Shown one piece after another: positions 1,400-29,899 of a stretch of 64,000 nucleotides of DNA. Under the pieces are notes generated by a model, which saw only the letters and a list, made by a program, of their open reading frames with translations, ran no database searches and was not told the DNA's origin. Origin of the DNA: Maricaulis sp. (GTDB taxonomy: Bacteria; Pseudomonadota; Alphaproteobacteria; Caulobacterales; Maricaulaceae); assembly GCF_030149515.1 (NCBI RefSeq), contig NZ_JASBRI010000020.1, forward strand, positions 62,001 to 126,000, read 5' to 3'. The position numbers and the translations under genes are program-made. Position 1 is the stretch's first letter. Each line of letters starts with the position of its first letter.

Positions 1400-2974
1400 C
1401 TACTCCCACTCAATCGTCCCCGGTGGCTTGCTGGTCACATCATACACCACCCGGTTCACGCCGCGGCATTCATTGATGATCCGGGTTGCCACGCGGCCGA
1501 GGAAATCGTGCTCGAACGGGTAGTAATCCGCCGTCATGCCGTCCACCGATGTCACCGCCCTGAGCGCCAGCACATGGTCGTAGGTGCGTTCGTCGCCCAT
1601 CACGCCGACGGTGCGCACGGGCAGGAGGACCGAGAAGGCCTGCCAGATCTTGTCATAGAGGCCTTCCTTGCGGATCTCGTCGATATAGATCGCGTCGGCC
1701 TTGCGCAGGATGTCGGCCTTTTCCTTCGAGACGGCGCCGGGGATGCGGATGGCCAGGCCCGGCCCCGGGAAGGGGTGACGGCCGACGAAGGCTTCGGGCA
1801 GGCCCAGCTCACGGCCCAGCGCCCGTACCTCGTCCTTGAACAGTTCGCGCAGGGGTTCCACCAGACCCATATTCATGCGTTCGGGAAGGCCGCCGACATT
1901 GTGGTGCGACTTGATCGTGACGGAGGGACCGCCATCGAAGGAAACACTTTCGATCACGTCCGGATAGAGCGTGCCCTGGGCCAGGAAATCGGCGCCGCCG
2001 GCCTCCTTCGCCTTTTCCTCGAACACGTCGATGAAGAGCTTGCCGATCGTCTTGCGCTTAACTTCCGGATCCTCGACCCCGTCGAGAGCCTTGAGGAACA
2101 TGTCTTCCGCATCGGCATGGATGAGCGGGATGTTGTAGTGTTCGCGGAACAGGGTCACCACCTCCTCCGCCTCGCCCAGCCGCATCAGGCCGGTATCCAC
2201 GAAGACGCAGGTCAGCTGGTCGCCGATCGCCTCGTGCAACAGCACGGCGACGACCGAGCTGTCCACGCCGCCGGAGAGGCCGCAGATCACTCGTCTGTCG
2301 CCCACCTGTTCGCGGACTTTCAGGATCGCCTCGTCCTTGAAGGAGGCCATCGACCAGTCGCCGGAAAGGCCGGCAATCGTGTGGGTGAAATTCCTCAGCA
2401 GGGCGGCGCCGCGCGGCGTGTGCACGACTTCCGGGTGGAATTGCACACCATAGAATTTGCGGTCCTCGTCGGCGATCGCGGCAAAGGGTGCATGGCCGGA
2501 CCTGGCAATCACCTTGAAGCCCGGCGGCAGGGCCGAGACGCGGTCGCCATGGCTCATCCACACGCGTTCTTCGTGACCGACGGGTCCGAACCCCTCGAAC
2601 AGCGGGCTGTCCTCGATCAGGGTGATGTCGGCGCGGCCGAATTCGCGATCGTCGGAGGCTTCCACCGATCCGCCCAGCTGGGCACACATCGTCTGTTCGC
2701 CATAGCAGATGCCCAGCACCGGTATCCCGCGGGTAAACACGCTCTCGTCGGCGCGGGGGGAATTGTCCCAGTGCGTGGAATGCGGCGACCCCGACAGGAT
2801 GATCGCCCTGGGATCGAAATCGTCGATAAAGGCCTTGTCGGCGCGGTTATAGGGGTGGATCTCGCAGAACACCCCGCTTTCGCGCACGCGCCGGGCGATC
2901 AGCTGGGTCACCTGGCTGCCGAAGTCGATGATCAGGAGCTTCTGGTGGTTTTCGTGAATGATGTCGTCGGTCAT
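1400..2974 (-). CDS. guaA: GMP synthase (glutamine-hydrolysing)
   Basis: Converts XMP to GMP using ATP and glutamine, the last step of guanine nucleotide synthesis in the cytosol. Three parts are visible: a class I glutamine amidotransferase with nucleophile GICYGEQ and the His-Glu pair in FHPEVVHT, an ATP-pyrophosphatase domain with P-loop SGGVDSS, and the dimerisation domain ending in PPGTIEWE. At 524 aa it has normal length. The track starts at a TTG (3007); I prefer the ATG at 2974 ([11 protein letters not shown]), though neither start has a strong Shine-Dalgarno. It is transcribed leftward into the 239-aa island gene. guaB lies about 3.7 kb away on the same strand. Confidence 0.97.
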
Positions 2975-3202
2975 GCGCGCACAGACCCGCAGGCGCGGGT
3001 TTCCCAAAGGTCGATTTTCAAGGGGGATGGCCGAGTTGAAGTCAGCATGCGGCCCGATAGCGCGAGTCAGCGCGAATGGCTAGAGGCCAGCGGCACAGGG
3101 ACGGGAAATGACCGGTTCTGCCCCTTCCGGACCGATTGGACCTTGAACCCGTCCTCCGGCGGGCTCAGATTTGGGCTGTCCAAGCCGCACCGGGAGCCCG
3201 TC

Positions 3203-3799
3203 ATGTATCCGTTCCGCCTTGCCGTCCTGCCCGCCAGCCTCGTCCTGCTGGCAGCCTGCTCGCAACCGGCCGCCCAGGGCGACTGGGTTCTCGATGGCAG
3301 CGCCTCCCGTCTCAACTTCGTCTCGATCAAGGCCGGAGACGTGGCCGAAACACACCGTTTCACGGATCTGTCCGGTTCCGTCGCCCCGGGCGGCGAGGCC
3401 GAACTGGTGATCGATCTGGCCAGTGTCGATACCGGCATCGGGATCCGCGACGAACGCATGCGCGAACACTTTTTCGAAGTCGCGGATTTTCCGCAGGCCC
3501 GGATCACCGCCCGGATTGACCTGGCAACACTGGCCGAACTGGCCCCGGGCGAACGCACCACGCTTGCCGTCGACGCCACGCTCGACCTGCACGGAGCCAG
3601 CGTGCCCCTGGCCGCGGATGTGGTGGTGACCGATCTCAACGGCACCCGCGTACTGGTGGAAAGTGCCGCGCCGGTCGCCCTTCATGTCGGGGATTTCGGC
3701 CTCGGCGACGGTCTCGCAACCCTGCAGGACCTGGCCGGACTTCCCTCGATCACACCGGTCACGCCGGTGACGTTTTCGCTGGTATTCGAACGCGGCTAA
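3203..3799 (+). CDS. YceI-family lipoprotein
   Basis: A 198-aa exported protein. The N-terminus has a short basic and hydrophobic signal ending in the lipobox LLAAC, so the mature protein is probably anchored by lipid at Cys19 or so. The rest matches the YceI lipocalin-like fold (the family of polyprenyl-binding periplasmic proteins): opening strand WVLDGSASRLNFVSIK, middle EHFFEVADFPQARITA, and closing strand TPVTFSLVF. The start ATG has GGGAG 7-8 nt upstream; the long ORF in the track that runs in from 1256 is an antisense extension through guaA. It is transcribed divergently from guaA and converges on rsmB. The ligand is unknown. Confidence 0.88.
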   Translation: MYPFRLAVLPASLVLLAACSQPAAQGDWVLDGSASRLNFVSIKAGDVAETHRFTDLSGSVAPGGEAELVIDLASVDTGIGIRDERMREHFFEVADFPQARITARIDLATLAELAPGERTTLAVDATLDLHGASVPLAADVVVTDLNGTRVLVESAAPVALHVGDFGLGDGLATLQDLAGLPSITPVTPVTFSLVFERG

Positions 3800-5109
3800 C
3801 CGCGCCGCTCCATCACGCAGATATAGAAGCCGTCCGTATCCGTTCGGGCCGGCGAGAGCTGGAGCGCGCCATGGGCGCCCGTGCACGCTTCCAGGACGGT
3901 CCGGGCGCCATCGGCGAGCTGCCCCGTAGCCTCCATCACGTCCAGCGCAGGCACCGGCTGGAAGCCGTCCGTGCGCGCCAGAAAATCCGTGATCCGGTCC
4001 TCATTCTCCTCGGGCAGGACAGAGCAGGTGACGTAGACGAGACGGCCGCCGTGCTTCACATAGCCGCTGGCGCCATCGAGCACCGCATCCTGTTCGGCCA
4101 TGCGTTTTTCCAGGGCGGCGGGCCTGAGGCGCCACTTGGCGTCGGGGCGGCGGCGCCAGGTTCCCGTGCCCGTGCACGGCGCGTCGCAGAAAACGACATC
4201 CATCTTCTCAGGAAGATCGCCCAATACCTCGTTTTCCTTGCCGTCATGCACCTGGACATTGCGCGCGTCGGCGCGTTTCAGACGCGGCCATATAGCGCGC
4301 AGGCGGCGCCAGTCGATGTCCCAGGCATGGACCTGTCCGGTATTCATCAGGAGCGCCGACAGGGCGAGCGTCTTGCCGCCGGCGCCGGCGCACTAGTCCA
4401 GGATCTGCAGGCCCGGCCGGGCGCCCGATGCCAGGGCGGCGAGCTGGGAACCGATATCCTGCACCTCCACCCAGCCCTTGCCATAGGCGGGAATACTCTC
4501 GGCGGCCGCTGCCTTGCCGCGCGGATCGCGCTGGGGAATACGGATGGCGGAGCGCACCAGGCAGGCGGGTTCCGCAGCCTTCAGTTTCGACGACACCTCT
4601 TTGAAAGCCTTGTCGAAATCGACCTTTACTTCATTCACTCGAAGATCGACCGGGGCGCGTGAGGACAGGAGCCGCCCCTCCTCCGCCGCGGCCTCGCCAA
4701 AGGCCCGCAGAAGGCTTTCCTCCAGCCATTCAGGCACATCGCCGCGAATGTGGAGCGGGGCGTCCGAAATATCGCGGGAGAGCCCGTCCCGTTCGGCAGG
4801 AGTGAGCGGGTCCGGCGCGTGCTCGTCGCCCTCGAACAGCGCGTCGATCCCGTCGGCCGAGAGCCCCCAGATCCGGCCGGCCGTGCCCAGCGCCAGGGCC
4901 CGCGCCGAACCGCCGCCCATCGCGTGGGCGATCGAGGCCCGGTGCCGAAGCGCATCCAGAACCAGCCCGCCGATCCACGCCCTGTCGCCCGAGCCGGCAA
5001 AACGATGCGCCTTGCCCCAGTCGCGCACGGCATCCTTCACCGGCTGGTGCTGGCGCTGCAATGTGTCGAGGATCTCGATGGCCGCGGCAATGCGGGCGCC
5101 GTCTTTCAT
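3796..5109 (-). pseudogene. rsmB: 16S rRNA m5C967 methyltransferase RsmB, interrupted by in-frame TAG
   Basis: Two track ORFs (4393-5109 and 3796-4347) are one reading frame split by a single TAG at 4393-4395, about codon 239. The first half has the NusB-like RNA-binding domain and the start of the methyltransferase; the second has the cysteine motif DAPCTGTGTWRR and the second catalytic cysteine motif YVTCSVLPEEN. The stop falls inside SAM-binding motif I: the frame reads LQILD-stop-CAGAGGKTLAL, where homologues carry a tyrosine, leucine or similar residue. No frameshift is needed to join them. Neither half alone would have both SAM-binding and catalytic sites. It is either a real nonsense mutation, a base-calling error, or a readthrough case. 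It follows the DUF2867 gene by 27 bp. Confidence 0.88.
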
Positions 5110-6643: not shown

Positions 6644-8167
<1,524 letters not shown>

Positions 8168-10506: not shown

Positions 10507-11250
10507 CTACCCCCTGAACCCGGTCGCGATCACGAAGGTCTCGGCGCTCTCGGAGCGGCTGGCATCGGGTTTGAAATGACGGACCTTTTCGAAATTGGCC
10601 TTGAGCAGGTCGAGAAGATCGCCCTCGGCGCCGCCCTGGAAGACCTTGGCGACAAAGAAGCCGCCGGGTTTCAGGGTTTCCAGGGCGAACTGCGCGGCCA
10701 GTTCGACCAGGGCAACGATGCGCAGATGGTCGGTTTTCTTGTGGCCGGTGGTCCAGGGTGCAAGATCGGAAATGACGCCGTCGGCCGGTCCGCCCATCTC
10801 GGCCTTGACCAGGCCGGGCGCATCTTCGGCGGTGAAATCGTGCTGCAGGAGAGTGGCCCCCGGTACCGGTTCGATTTCGAGAAGGTCGATACCCACGACT
10901 TCCGCCGCCTTCGCCTTCAGCGCCACCTGAACCCAGCCGCCGGGCGCCGACCCCAGATCGACGATCCGCATACCGGGCTTGAGCAGGTGGAAGCGCTCGT
11001 CCAGCTGGATCAGCTTGTAGGCCGCGCGTGAGCGATAGCCCTCCATCTGGGCCTTCTTGACGTAAGGGTCATTGAGCTGGCGCTGCAGCCAGCGCGTGGA
11101 CGATGTCTTGCGGCCGCGCGCCGTCTTCACGCGCTCGAACATCTGTTTCGCCGCGCGGGCATCGCCGCCCTTTTTCACCGGGCCGGAACGCCGCCGGCGG
11201 CGCTTGCCGCCATCGCCCTTGCCGGCGCTCTCCTCGCTGTCATCGCTCAT
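10507..11250 (-). CDS. rlmE: 23S rRNA 2'-O-methyltransferase RlmE (FtsJ)
   Basis: Methylates the 2'-O of U2552 in the A-loop of 23S rRNA on the assembled 50S subunit. The 247-aa protein has a lysine- and arginine-rich N-terminal extension of about 45 residues, common in alphaproteobacteria. The Rossmann methyltransferase follows: SAM motif VDLGSAPGGW and the K-D-K-E catalytic tetrad, readable as K in SRAAYKLIQ, D in ISDLAPWTTG, K in FVAKVFQGG and E in SAETFVIA. Its ATG overlaps the ppx stop by 4 bp, so the two are translated as a unit. Confidence 0.95.
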   Translation of the reverse strand: MSDDSEESAGKGDGGKRRRRRSGPVKKGGDARAAKQMFERVKTARGRKTSSTRWLQRQLNDPYVKKAQMEGYRSRAAYKLIQLDERFHLLKPGMRIVDLGSAPGGWVQVALKAKAAEVVGIDLLEIEPVPGATLLQHDFTAEDAPGLVKAEMGGPADGVISDLAPWTTGHKKTDHLRIVALVELAAQFALETLKPGGFFVAKVFQGGAEGDLLDLLKANFEKVRHFKPDASRSESAETFVIATGFRG

Positions 11251-12359
11251 GCCTCAACCCCGGACGAACCCTTGCCTTTCCCGCGCCTGTGCCTGCGCCG
11301 CCGTTTCTTGGACTTGCGCATCAGGTTCAGCAACATCCCTTCGCGCAGCCCCCGGTCGCCCACGCGCAACCGGTCCGCCGGCCACGCCTCGGCCACGGCT
11401 TCGTAGATGGCGCACCCCGCCAGGACAAGCTCGGCCCGGTCGAGGCCGATCGTGGGCTCCTGGGCGCGGCCGGCAACATCGAGATTGCGCAACCTGGCAC
11501 AGGCGGCCAAGGCCTCCTCGCCGGTCATCCAGAGGCCGTCCACCCGCGAGCGGTCGTAACGCGGCAGGCGAAGATGCACACCGGCCATCGATGTCACCGT
11601 GCCCGACGTGCCGACCAGATGCCCGCGCCCCTCCCTGAAGAGCGGACGCATGGCCTTCGCCCCGCGCGGTGTCTTCATCAGCTGACGGGCATAGGCCTTC
11701 ATCTCATTGTACCAGGCCTCGCGGTCCTCCCGTTCGGGAAAGCGTTCCGACAGCGTCACCACACCCACAGGCGTCGACGTCCAGGACTTCATGGGCGGAC
11801 GCCCCCCGCTTTCCGGACCTCCGCGCCGGCGCCATTCGGCGATATCGACCCAGGACAGCTCCGTCGACCCGCCGCCGATATCGATCACCAGGGCTGCATC
11901 CTTGTCCGGATCCAGGAGATCGACACAGCCATGCACGGCCAGACGCGCCTCTTCCTCGGGCGAAATCAGATCGAATTCCAGCCCGGTTTCCCGGCGGACG
12001 CGGTTGAGGAATTCCTCGCCATTGCCGGCCATACGGCAAGCCTGGGTGGCGATGGAGCGATATTTGACAACCTTGTGGCGCTTAATCTTGCCGGCGCACA
12101 CTTTCAGCGCCTCGACGGCCCTGTCCATGGCCCCGTCGGACAGGCGTCCTTCAGCGGCCACACCCTCGCCCAGGCGCACGACACGCGAAAACGCATCCAC
12201 AACCTGGAAACCCGCACCGGTACGATGGGCCAGCAGCATGCGGCAATTATTCGTACCCAGATCGATTGCGCCGTACACCGGAGCCGGCGCACGCTTGCGC
12301 CCGTTCCGCTTGCGTCCGGCGGCGTCCTTCCCCGCATTCCGGGGCGATGGCTCCGCCAT
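11247..12359 (-). CDS. Ppx/GppA-family phosphatase (short form)
   Basis: A 370-aa member of the ASKHA exopolyphosphatase / guanosine-pentaphosphatase family. Visible are the first phosphate loop AIDLGTNNCRMLLA, the mid-domain SIATQACRMAGNGEEF, and the second phosphate loop IDIGGGSTELSW. The C-terminal HD-like domain of E. coli Ppx/GppA is missing, and the tail is basic (RKSKKRRRRHRRGKGKG). The short form is usual in alphaproteobacteria. Acting on polyphosphate or (p)ppGpp is inferred from the family and cannot be told apart here. It is the first gene of a pair with rlmE (4-bp overlap). Confidence 0.9.
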   Translation of the reverse strand: MAEPSPRNAGKDAAGRKRNGRKRAPAPVYGAIDLGTNNCRMLLAHRTGAGFQVVDAFSRVVRLGEGVAAEGRLSDGAMDRAVEALKVCAGKIKRHKVVKYRSIATQACRMAGNGEEFLNRVRRETGLEFDLISPEEEARLAVHGCVDLLDPDKDAALVIDIGGGSTELSWVDIAEWRRRGGPESGGRPPMKSWTSTPVGVVTLSERFPEREDREAWYNEMKAYARQLMKTPRGAKAMRPLFREGRGHLVGTSGTVTSMAGVHLRLPRYDRSRVDGLWMTGEEALAACARLRNLDVAGRAQEPTIGLDRAELVLAGCAIYEAVAEAWPADRLRVGDRGLREGMLLNLMRKSKKRRRRHRRGKGKGSSGVEA

Positions 12360-25504: not shown

Positions 25505-26209
25505 TCAGTCAACCGGAATGCCGCAGATCGCCGCGATGGTGCGCCACGGCAGGGCAGCAGAAGCCAGCCCCAGAGCGGCAATGGCCAGTCCGGCGCCGAT
25601 CCGGACCCGCGCTGTCCGCGCGGCCGACATCAGCGCGGACACGCCGAAAGCCGATGCCGTAACGGCGGGAAGCGTGCCCAGACCGAAGCCCAGCATGATC
25701 GATGCACCGGTCTCCGGCCGCCCGGACAACATGACATAGAACAAGGTGGCGTAGACCATCCCGCAGGGCAGGAAACCCCAGAGAAATCCCGCCGCCAGCG
25801 GGCTGGCGAGCGAGAGGCCGAAAGGTGCGCGGATCCAGCCGAGAATGCGATGTCCGAACCGGTCGAATCCCGCCAGCGACGGCGCCCAGCCCGCCACCGA
25901 CAGGCCTATATAGACCAGCATGGCCGCCCCCGCCCAGCGCAGGAGGAGGTGCGCCTCGGACCGGTCGAAGGCGAAATAGGCCTGCGACCCCAGCGCCGCC
26001 AGCAGGCTTCCAGCCAGAACATAGGCTGCCATCCGGCCCAGCTGGGCGAGCATCAGAGCCCGGGTACGCGCCACCGCCGTGTTCCCGCCGAGTGTGACCG
26101 ACAGGCTCGCCGCGATCCCGCCACACATGCCCACACAGTGCAGGCTGGAGGCGAAACCGGCCAGAAGACCGCCTGCTATACTCAGTTCCGACAGGCCGGC
26201 TGGCGCCAT
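25505..26209 (-). CDS. TauE/DsbD-like membrane protein of the cbb3 cluster
   Basis: A 234-aa inner-membrane protein with six helices, from the sulfite exporter TauE/SafE-like (UreH/DsbD_2) family found next to cco genes. Two cysteine-containing segments mark it: LHCVGMCGGIAASLS at the N-terminal helix and GFLWGFLPCGMVYATL in the middle, each ending a helix with a GMxxG-like turn. Homologues in cco clusters are thought to take part in copper delivery or heme/redox assembly of the oxidase. It is on the same strand as ccoNOQP-GHIS, but the plus-strand DUF2189 gene lies between them; so it has its own promoter, divergent from DUF2189. Confidence 0.85.
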   Translation of the reverse strand: MAPAGLSELSIAGGLLAGFASSLHCVGMCGGIAASLSVTLGGNTAVARTRALMLAQLGRMAAYVLAGSLLAALGSQAYFAFDRSEAHLLLRWAGAAMLVYIGLSVAGWAPSLAGFDRFGHRILGWIRAPFGLSLASPLAAGFLWGFLPCGMVYATLFYVMLSGRPETGASIMLGFGLGTLPAVTASAFGVSALMSAARTARVRIGAGLAIAALGLASAALPWRTIAAICGIPVD

Positions 26210-26323
26210 TGCCGCTTCTCCTCAAAACCCGTGCTTGCCCTGTGCAAATCCACAAATAAAGTGTGGCGTAACGCCGCAAACCAGCCAAAACTGACTGGCG
26301 ACGCATAGCCCCGGGAGGACATC

Positions 26324-27091
26324 ATGGTTCAACTCAAACAGGTCCGCCGCGATGCCCCCTGGAGCTGGCTCAAGGCCGGCTGGGCCGATCTGGTGCGCGC
26401 GCCCCGCGTGGCGCTGGGCTACGGCCTGGTCTTCGTCGGCCTCGGCGTGCTCGTCGTCGCCGGCCTGCATGCCGTCGGCATGACCGCGGCCGTCCCGGTC
26501 CTGCTGAGCGGTTTCGCCCTGATCGCCCCGGCCCTGGCCATCGGCATCTATCAGGTGTCCAGGGCCTTCGAGCGAGGCGAGACGCCCCGCTTCCGGGTTG
26601 TCGTTTCGCGCTTCCCCTCGCGCCTCTCGCAGATCGGATTCCTGAGCCTGTTGCTGGTCATGCTGCTGCTCATCTGGGTGCGGATCGCGCAATTCCTGCT
26701 GGCGGCCATCGCACCGGATACGCCTTTGACACCGGGGCCCTTTCTGGAATTCGCCCTGACCGATCCGGGCGGGCTGACGCTGGTCGTGCTCGGTACGCTG
26801 GTCGGCGCGGTTCTGGCCGGGACGGCCTTTGCGATGTCGGCGCTGTCCTTTCCCATGCTGGTCGATCAGGACGTGGATGCGGTGACAGCGCTGGTGGCGA
26901 GTTTCAAGGCGGTGATCGCCCAGCCCTTCGTGATGCTGACCTGGGCCTGGCTGATCGCCTTCATGGTGGCGCTGGGATCGGTCTTCTTCCTGGTGGGACT
27001 GGCCGTCACTTTCCCCTGGATCGCCCTGGCGACCTGGCATGCCTACCGCGATTTCGCCCCGTCGCCGGAACCTTCGGCCGTCTCGGCCTGA
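26324..27091 (+). CDS. DUF2189 membrane protein
   Basis: A 255-aa integral membrane protein with about six helices matching DUF2189. The family pattern is WSWLKAGWADLVRAPRVALGYG at the N-terminus and GIYQVSRAFERGETPRF after the second helix. Members often lie near cytochrome oxidase genes. The ATG has GGGAGG at good spacing. Its 3' end runs 49 bp into the 3' end of ccoS on the other strand. Function unknown; the place between the TauE-like gene and ccoS suggests a role in the respiratory membrane. Confidence 0.85.
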   Translation: MVQLKQVRRDAPWSWLKAGWADLVRAPRVALGYGLVFVGLGVLVVAGLHAVGMTAAVPVLLSGFALIAPALAIGIYQVSRAFERGETPRFRVVVSRFPSRLSQIGFLSLLLVMLLLIWVRIAQFLLAAIAPDTPLTPGPFLEFALTDPGGLTLVVLGTLVGAVLAGTAFAMSALSFPMLVDQDVDAVTALVASFKAVIAQPFVMLTWAWLIAFMVALGSVFFLVGLAVTFPWIALATWHAYRDFAPSPEPSAVSA

Positions 27092-27258
27092 TCGCGTTCT
27101 TCCTTTGAAAGCAGGGGCTTGTCGTCGTCGATCAGAATGCGGTGCGCAGCTCCGTCCAGATCGTCGAACTGGCCGGATTTCAGGCTCCACATAAAGGCCA
27201 GAAGTCCCAGACCGCCCATGGCGATGGCAACGGGTATGAGCCAGATCAGGACCGACAT
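27043..27258 (-). CDS. ccoS: cbb3 oxidase assembly protein CcoS
   Basis: A 71-aa protein with one N-terminal membrane helix (VLIWLIPVAIAMGGLGLLAFMWSLKSGQFDDLDG). The stretch ending WSLKSGQFDDLDG is the hallmark of CcoS/FixS, needed to place heme b and copper in the oxidase. The C-terminal 30 residues are hydrophilic. It overlaps the end of ccoI by 13 bp and closes the cluster. Its last 49 bp also code, antisense, for the end of the DUF2189 protein. Confidence 0.93.
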   Translation of the reverse strand: MSVLIWLIPVAIAMGGLGLLAFMWSLKSGQFDDLDGAAHRILIDDDKPLLSKEERDQAETAEGSGDGAKSR

Positions 27259-29441
27259 CGGCGCGCAAGCCTCAAAGCATTGAGTGTCACCAGGACCGAG
27301 GACGCCGACATGGCGATAGCGGCGATCAGCGGCGTGACAAAGCCGGCCACCGCAAGCGGCACGGCGATCATGTTGTAAACCGCTGCCAGGGCAAAGTTTT
27401 CCAGAACGCGCCGCCTGGCCCCGCGCGACACGTCGAGGGCCATGATCGCCGAGTTCAGCCGGTCGCCCTGCAGCACGAAGTCGGCCGCAGCCTGGGAGAT
27501 TTCCGCCGCCGATGCCAGCGAAACGGAGACGTCCGCGGCGGCCAGGGCGGGGGCGTCATTGATGCCGTCACCGATCATGGCAACGCGGCGCCCCTCGTCT
27601 TTCAGGGCCTTCAGGCGGGCGATCTTGTCCTGGGGTTTCAGTTCGGCCTGCCAGGCATCGATCCCCAATTCCTGCGCAATCGCGGCCACGGGACCCGCAC
27701 GATCCCCCGACAGGAGTACAATCGCCATGCCCCGGGCCTGAAATTGCGAGACGGTCGAAACCGCATCGGACCGCAACCGGTCCATGAAGCGAAAGCGCAC
27801 CGGTTCGCCCCCGTCACGGCACAGCCAGGCCTCCGTATGGGGGTCGCCGGGCGTATCGATCCCGATCCAGCGCGCCGAGCCGAGGCGGACCCTCACCCCG
27901 TCCTCGAACGCTTCGATTCCGCCGCCGGAAATCTCGCGGGCATCGGCCGCTGCGTGACCCATCCCTGCAGCATCTGCGACGGCGCGGGAAAGCGGGTGAC
28001 GGCTGGTCCGGGCGAGACGGGCGGCGGTCTCGAATTCCGCGTCGGGAATGTCCCCGCGGTTGATCAGGCGCGGACGGCCTTCGGTGAGTGTTCCGGTCTT
28101 GTCGAAGACGACGGTGTCGATGCCCGCCAGACGCTCCATGGCGTCGCCGGATTTTACCAGCACACCTTCGCGATAGAGCCGGCCCGAGGCGACGACCTGG
28201 ACCGCCGGGACCGCCAGGCCCAGGGCGCAGGGACAGGTGATGATCAGAACGGCAATGGCATTGATGATCGCCATGCGCGGGTCCCCTGCCACGACCAGCC
28301 AGCCCACCAGGGTCAGCGCGGCCAGGGAATGCACAACGGGGACGTAGAGTTTCGCGGCGCGGTCGGCGAGGCGGACATAGCGCGAGCGGCTCTGTTCGCC
28401 GGCCTCGACCAGGCGGGTGATCTCGGCCAGCAGGGAATTGTCGCGGTCGGCGGTGGCTTCCAGCACCAGCTTGGCATCGAGATTGAGCATGCCCGAGAAG
28501 ATCTCGATGCCCGGACGGGCCTCGACCGGAGCCGTCTCGCCGGTGACCAGGGATCCGTCCAGCGCGCCCGTGCCCTCGCGGATAATGGCGTCGACCGGCA
28601 CACGGTCGCCGGCGGCGAGAACGAGCCGGTCGCCCGCCCTCACCTCCCGCGCCGGGATCGCCTCGATGCGGCCGTCGGGACGGATCCGGTTGGCGGTGGC
28701 CGCCTGCATCGCCGCCAGGCCCCGCGCCGCCTCGCCGGCCCTGGCGCGAAGGCGCATGTCCAGAAACCGTCCGATCAGGAGGAAGAAGAGCAGCATCACG
28801 GCGGCGTCGTAATAGGTGTCGCCATGGCCGATGAAGGTTTCCCAGACCGACAGGCCGCAGGCCAGCAGCACGGCCAGCGAGATCGGCACGTCCATGTTCA
28901 CATGGCCGTTGCGAAGTGCGGTGATGGCGGAACGGAAGAAGGGCTGGCCGGCATAGGCCGCCGCCGGAAGGACAATCAGGGCAGAGATGCGGTGCATCAG
29001 CGCCTGCATCGTTCCGGTCATCTCCATGCCGCCGGCCCAGACCGAGATCGAGAGCAGCATGACATTGGCCATGGCGAAGCCGGCCACGGCCATCGCGCGC
29101 AGCAGTTTGCGCTCCTCCTCCTTCTGCGGATCGGCATCGGTTTCCGGCTCGTAGGGCGTGGCCGGATAGCCGATGGCGCGCAGCTTGGCGACGTATTCGC
29201 CAGCCAGTGCGGGATCGCCGCGCCAGGACAGGGACAGCCGTCCGGTCGACAGGTTCAGCCGGGCATTCTCGACGCGCGGATCCTCGCGCAGACCCGACTC
29301 GATCCGGGCGATACAGCCCGCACACACCGCCCCGCGCACCAGCAGGTCGAGTCTGGACTGACCGTCCGCGAGGCGCACGAAAGCCTGCGGATCGACAGCA
29401 TTCGCGGTATCCGACAGATGAGCGGCATCTAGGGCAGCCAC
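27246..29441 (-). CDS. ccoI: Copper-exporting P-type ATPase CcoI (FixI)
   Basis: A 731-aa P1B-type ATPase that moves copper across the inner membrane for cbb3 assembly. In order: an N-terminal heavy-metal domain with CAGC in GAVCAGCIARIESGL, membrane helices, the actuator loop (GTGALDGSLVTGETAPV), the membrane CPC motif ITCPCALGLAVP, the phosphorylation site DKTGTLTEG and the hinge GDGINDAPAL. Only one metal domain is present, as is usual in CcoI. It overlaps ccoH by 13 bp upstream and ccoS by 13 bp downstream. Confidence 0.96.
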   Translation of the reverse strand: MAALDAAHLSDTANAVDPQAFVRLADGQSRLDLLVRGAVCAGCIARIESGLREDPRVENARLNLSTGRLSLSWRGDPALAGEYVAKLRAIGYPATPYEPETDADPQKEEERKLLRAMAVAGFAMANVMLLSISVWAGGMEMTGTMQALMHRISALIVLPAAAYAGQPFFRSAITALRNGHVNMDVPISLAVLLACGLSVWETFIGHGDTYYDAAVMLLFFLLIGRFLDMRLRARAGEAARGLAAMQAATANRIRPDGRIEAIPAREVRAGDRLVLAAGDRVPVDAIIREGTGALDGSLVTGETAPVEARPGIEIFSGMLNLDAKLVLEATADRDNSLLAEITRLVEAGEQSRSRYVRLADRAAKLYVPVVHSLAALTLVGWLVVAGDPRMAIINAIAVLIITCPCALGLAVPAVQVVASGRLYREGVLVKSGDAMERLAGIDTVVFDKTGTLTEGRPRLINRGDIPDAEFETAARLARTSRHPLSRAVADAAGMGHAAADAREISGGGIEAFEDGVRVRLGSARWIGIDTPGDPHTEAWLCRDGGEPVRFRFMDRLRSDAVSTVSQFQARGMAIVLLSGDRAGPVAAIAQELGIDAWQAELKPQDKIARLKALKDEGRRVAMIGDGINDAPALAAADVSVSLASAAEISQAAADFVLQGDRLNSAIMALDVSRGARRRVLENFALAAVYNMIAVPLAVAGFVTPLIAAIAMSASSVLVTLNALRLARRCRS

Positions 29442-29899
29442 AGATCATGCTCCATCTCGAACGGCGCCTCGCCGTCATTGACCGCGTGGAGATGCCACTC
29501 GCCGGCCTCGGTGCAGGGCAGCGTGACCCGGTAGAGGCCGGCCCGCCGTTCCTCGAAGGCCAGCGGACAATCGCGCGACGTATCCGTCGGATGATTCATC
29601 GCGCCGGACAGGGACAGCCCGCTGACCGGGGTGCCGCCGGCGTCGCGCACTTCGACGAGGAGGTCTCCATCGACCACATTGACCCGGGCCGACCAGCCCA
29701 ACGCATCCTGGGCCCGGCGGCGGTCGAGAACATCGTTGTAGTTCAGCCCCTGGACGTAGGAACGCGGCACGTCCTCGCCGGGATGCGTGCGCATAGCCAG
29801 GGTGATGAAGGTGGCGTTCACGCCGATGGTCACCGTGAAGAAAGCCACGATCATCACGAGAACGTGCCAGCCTTTGACCGGGTTCAGGAAGCCCTTCAT
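29429..29899 (-). CDS. ccoH: cbb3 oxidase assembly protein CcoH (FixH)
   Basis: A 156-aa protein with one N-terminal membrane helix (GWHVLVMIVAFFTVTIGVNATFITLA) and a periplasmic beta-rich domain, matching FixH. The motif YVQGLNYNDVLDRRRAQDALGW is typical. I start at ATG 29899 (MKGFLNPVKGW); the longer ORF in the track is an overlap into ccoG. The ATG overlaps the ccoG stop codon by 4 bp (ATGA). In Rhodobacter and others CcoH is needed for stable oxidase assembly. Confidence 0.93.
   Translation of the reverse strand: MKGFLNPVKGWHVLVMIVAFFTVTIGVNATFITLAMRTHPGEDVPRSYVQGLNYNDVLDRRRAQDALGWSARVNVVDGDLLVEVRDAGGTPVSGLSLSGAMNHPTDTSRDCPLAFEERRAGLYRVTLPCTEAGEWHLHAVNDGEAPFEMEHDLWLP

Follow-up and report, generated by a model that had tools for sequence, protein, structure and literature searches.

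Described relatives of the gene analysed here include two Escherichia coli enzymes, RsmB (Sun/Fmu), the methyltransferase of m5C967 in 16S rRNA, and RsmF (YebU), which methylates 16S rRNA at m5C1407. Loss of rsmB in E. coli leads to the accumulation of 17S rRNA precursor (PMC7056703). A published survey found RsmF paralogues to be markedly present and suggested them as possible performers of the RsmF function (PMC4119055), a suggestion that may bear on the gene described below. For a paralogue linked to guaA and guaB in Alphaproteobacteria or in Maricaulis, our literature search found nothing and no assigned RNA target, and among the curated NCBIfam models none reaches its cut-off for this family.

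We have analysed a window of 64,000 nucleotides from the draft genome of a marine Maricaulis (30 contigs, 89.8% complete, probably metagenome-assembled) in which one such gene is interrupted by a single amber codon. The frame lies on the minus strand from 5109 to 3796, opens with an ATG (5107–5109), closes with a second TAG (3796–3798) and counts 437 codons with the amber included, leaving 238 residues on the N-terminal and 198 on the C-terminal side of the stop. Direct reading of the window gives CTG GAC TAG TGC GCC (L D stop C A) around 4393–4395 on the minus strand, within the protein context LQILD-stop-CAGAGGKTLAL. Over its whole length, either half aligns with Maricaulis relatives (75–86% identity), and several relatives also terminate in TAG at the position of 3796–3798. 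The sequence-only reading had described one TAG splitting an otherwise intact frame of 436 codons, conserved on both sides and in the same frame, with a downstream restart that would lose motif I, and all of this agrees with what we found (436 sense codons plus the amber). The features are collected in Table 1.

Table 1. Positions of the interrupted gene, its parts, its neighbours and the second full PF01189 gene of the genome (window coordinates unless a locus is given).
Feature	Position	Strand	Basis
guaA/guaB-linked RsmB-like (PF01189) RNA m5C methyltransferase paralogue (predicted), one TAG interrupting the frame	3796..5109	-	domain search, alignment, family survey
Amber TAG, codon 239 (SAM motif I, flanked by Asp238 and Cys240); the other Maricaulis all have Tyr (TAT/TAC)	4393..4395	-	
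N-terminal fragment, 238 aa: N-terminal region and weak ferredoxin-like RsmF-B domain (residues 126-193), without catalytic domain	4396..5109	-	
C-terminal segment past the stop: remainder of motif I, catalytic Cys312 (DAPC) and Cys362 (TCS), the counterparts of Cys325 and Cys375 in E. coli RsmB	3799..4392	-	
First candidate in-frame restart ATG, 45 nt downstream of the stop; product of 183 aa without motif I	4345..4347	-	
Natural terminator of the interrupted gene, also TAG	3796..3798	-	
guaA (GMP synthase), intact neighbour; TAG end, then 241 codons without in-frame stop	1400..3007	-	
guaB (IMP dehydrogenase), intact neighbour; marker of the conserved gene neighbourhood	6644..8113	-	
RsmB orthologue (predicted), intact, NusB domain	L001:805-2103 (G000:C19, htpX-rsmB-rpe)		

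Identity of the interrupted gene and of the intact RsmB orthologue

Read across the stop, the frame matches PF01189 with 133.2 bits, above the gathering score (cut-off 27), and carries a weak RsmF-B ferredoxin-like domain, a pattern identical to that of the intact Maricaulis maris orthologue; the domain search returned no match to the NusB-like domain PF01029 in either of them. The two cysteines of motifs IV (DAPC, Cys312) and VI (TCS, Cys362) are present, both of them behind the stop. Scores against the curated RsmB models were 166.7 bits for TIGR00563 (cut-off 269), 182.4 for PRK10901 (375) and 196.5 for PRK14902 (319), and none of the RsmB and RsmF cut-offs was reached by the interrupted gene, which stays far below all of them.

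A second full PF01189 gene of this genome was found intact on contig C19, near 79 kb, in the order htpX-rsmB-rpe. It matches PF01029 (NusB) at an E-value of 9.8e-18 and is covered over nearly its full length by the same three RsmB models, on which it scores 227.9, 276 and 216.5 bits (TIGR00563, PRK10901 and PRK14902, respectively), below the cut-offs and above the interrupted gene on all three. Against E. coli RsmB it reaches 186 bits in a full-length alignment, versus 115 bits for the interrupted gene; against the solved Sun protein the figures are 188 bits (residues 10–396) for the C19 gene and 112 bits (residues 126–381) for one of the intact orthologues of the interrupted gene. In the phylogenetic tree, the interrupted gene with its orthologues and the C19 gene with its own form separate clades, one on each side of a branch (support 100/99), and E. 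coli RsmB joins the C19 set (93/87), with the E. coli rows as long branches.

On these domain, score and tree data, the C19 gene is judged to be this genome's orthologue of E. coli RsmB, from which we infer its cellular role. The interrupted gene does not share this orthology and is judged to be a guaA/guaB-linked, RsmB-like paralogue of Alphaproteobacteria, situated here between guaA and guaB. The name rsmB, given to the interrupted gene from the sequence alone, thus fails for want of a NusB match, for scores below the RsmB cut-offs and for its position in a separate clade. The loss of 16S m5C967 proposed together with that name is not implied either, because the interrupted gene would be a paralogue and an intact RsmB orthologue exists on C19; m5C967 is presumably made by the latter and hence unaffected by the amber codon. 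By the same token, the 17S precursor effect of rsmB loss in E. coli should not be transferred to the interrupted paralogue. The two genes could be confused with each other in annotation. A third, weak PF01189 match (G000:C30:20339-20530, 21.7 bits) falls below the cut-off and probably belongs to a different methyltransferase family.

Distribution and age of the amber codon

Maricaulaceae, Hyphomonadaceae, Caulobacteraceae and several rhizobial families contain homologues of the interrupted gene, and the locus (window 3796-5109) together with loci L064-L143 represents a guaA/guaB-linked RsmB-like family kept in nearly all relatives. Within the taxonomic family, the gene is present (E below 1e-60) in 124 of 137 genomes, with an internal stop in this copy only; the 13 without a match are all fragmented drafts with completeness of at most 94%, and every family genome at least 95% complete carries it. 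Loss of the gene therefore seems to be rare, and a tolerated null is a priori less likely. A candidate second loss within the genus, in Maricaulis G011, was rejected since guaA is absent there too and the region was probably left unassembled, pointing to a gap in the assembly and not to gene loss.

The alignment with related strains that had been proposed as a check gave a Tyr codon, TAT or TAC, at codon 239 in 17/17 of the other Maricaulis orthologues; the two nearest species both have TAT, and TAC occurs in three others of the genus. Distant homologues have codons for L, I, V, F, M or C there (Y, L, I, V, F, M and C overall), and a sense codon is found at this position in all 109 other loci in which the motif could be read, some genomes being counted twice, so that the stop stands out from chance. 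Of the suggested origin by a single base change from a Tyr or a Leu codon, the single base and the Tyr codon of the relatives stand, and Leu does not.

At the DNA level the nearest species are about 80–81% identical, so the branch leading to this genome is long, and the gene has remained constrained on both sides of the stop, with pN/pS of 0.14–0.20 against the two nearest species. Of the columns that are constant across the 17 other Maricaulis, 0/122 downstream and 1/131 upstream have changed here; a gene free of constraint over the whole branch would be expected to show about 56 changes downstream. Since constraint was kept on both sides, the age of the lesion is estimated at no more than about 5% of that of the branch, a rough Poisson bound from the pairwise and invariant-column tests. 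With one outgroup, 15–18 downstream amino-acid changes fell in this lineage versus 2 in the nearest relatives, and with a second one 11–13 versus about 10; we have not accepted this excess as decay, given that the same columns vary elsewhere.

Competing explanations for the stop

We consider it probable that the amber is a very recent nonsense variant of the sequenced strain, fixed or segregating, which would inactivate an RsmB-like RNA cytosine-C5 methyltransferase paralogue. A Tyr codon, TAT or TAC, would have become TAG through one third-position transversion; RF1 would then terminate translation after 238 residues, so that an N-terminal half without the catalytic domain would remain, and a restart at the next ATG would yield a catalytic half that lacks the SAM-binding loop. 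The activity of the paralogue on its RNA target would be lost in this strain, with m5C967 unaffected; a null for the paralogue alone is expected, both catalytic cysteines lying behind the stop. In favour of a nonsense variant are the uniqueness of the interruption among the 124 genomes with the gene, the Tyr codon throughout the other Maricaulis and the lack of any drift since. The transversion that it requires, T:A to G:C or C:G to G:C, is a less common type of mutation and counts against it.

A close rival, possible but with a lower probability, is a consensus mistake of base calling, low coverage or assembly, in which case a Tyr codon would be present in the cell in place of the TAG. With a single genome for the species, the sequence is equally compatible with a wrong assembly base. 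The draft state of the genome points in this direction, as does the fact that the TAG, present in no other family genome, is the sole gene-breaking change in an otherwise fully constrained gene, as an error would leave it. The change moreover creates CTAG (within ACTAGT), a tetramer depleted in the window (18 seen versus about 51 expected from trinucleotides). Against an error, the surroundings of the codon contain no homopolymer and no GG motif of the kind that accompanies systematic Illumina miscalls. Codon usage was scanned over 164 kb, made up of the window and 100 kb from other contigs, and no other interrupted coding frame came up, which indicates that the assembly is generally clean and gene-breaking errors infrequent. 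The scan flagged five in-frame stops between coding stretches, the fifth being the amber at 4393–4395. The other four (15069, 33314 and two in L157) were discarded as gene boundaries, each being followed by an ATG at a distance of no more than about 15 codons. Apparent further stops in the window (27261–29516, 10510–11532 and 26153–27103) fall beyond the conserved coding portions, where the relative's frames extend upstream or at the tail. Similarity to 100 kb of contig C17 of the relative G014 stops near 40.1 kb, and window positions 40100-64000 have no convincing match there.

A strain polymorphism, with two alleles in the population and the amber allele in the consensus, is a sub-case of the nonsense variant that differs from it in allele frequency only, its probability being contained in that of the latter. 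Taken separately we regard it as rather unlikely; it fits the very young age of the lesion, in a comparison set of one genome per species. Recent loss, polymorphism and assembly error, all named in the sequence-only reading, are thus the right candidates for a single-base change in a frame otherwise intact.

The fourth candidate of that reading, amber suppression, programmed readthrough or recoding into a full-length enzyme, is disfavoured and in our view very improbable. The frame past the stop is conserved and residue 239 is variable among distant homologues, such that many inserted residues could be tolerated, but the youth of the lesion fully accounts for the constraint past the stop. The genome encodes RF1 (prfA, 488 bits, cut-off 423). 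The proposed search for an amber-suppressor tRNA found no reader of UAG and no CUA anticodon among the 40 tRNAs found and typed in this roughly 90% complete genome, an absence that is not absolute, since no tRNA-Ile is among the 40 either and the draft must therefore lack some tRNA genes. TAG is the terminator of 12/26 syntenic neighbouring genes, the interrupted gene included (11/25 of the others), and readthrough at the guaA TAG would append 241 codons. No second internal TAG was seen in the 164 kb scanned, and no relative has the TAG in common with this copy. In E. coli, termination is efficient where UAG is followed by U, as it is here. The genetic code of the genome is ordinary, and a reassignment of UAG finds no support. 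A real amber that is usefully read through, for instance by a suppressor tRNA encoded in the tenth of the genome that the draft lacks, with the paralogue's methylation dependent on suppression, would be less probable still. Finally, a two-piece enzyme with separately translated halves working together has hardly any likelihood, despite the ATG 45 nt downstream of the stop, as the second half would be devoid of the SAM loop CAGAGGK, that ATG has no clear ribosome-binding sequence in front of it and the gene is split in no relative.

Comparison with known systems

With E. coli RsmB the interrupted gene has in common the methyltransferase domain, the DAPC and TCS cysteines and about 33% identity over 257 residues, and it differs in having no detectable NusB domain, in scoring far below the RsmB cut-offs and in falling outside the RsmB clade. 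With E. coli RsmF it shares the PF01189 catalytic domain, although it reaches only 84 bits, over that domain, and remains far below the RsmF cut-offs. The closest resemblance is to the unnamed alphaproteobacterial family of guaA/guaB-linked RsmB-like m5C methyltransferases (PF01189), with full-length homology, both catalytic cysteines and a neighbour order identical in the Maricaulis relative G014, from which it departs by an internal stop in this copy only.

Confirmation of the codon would make the strain a natural knockout for a methyltransferase that Alphaproteobacteria have widely kept. The practical value of the case is one of caution, as the name rsmB would suggest a loss of m5C967 while the putative true RsmB orthologue is intact. 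The lesion itself is like an ordinary nonsense pseudogene or a base error of a draft genome, with one base, one gene, no shared history and a normal code, and we found no difference from these; it is an ordinary event, one unshared nonsense codon, real or erroneous.
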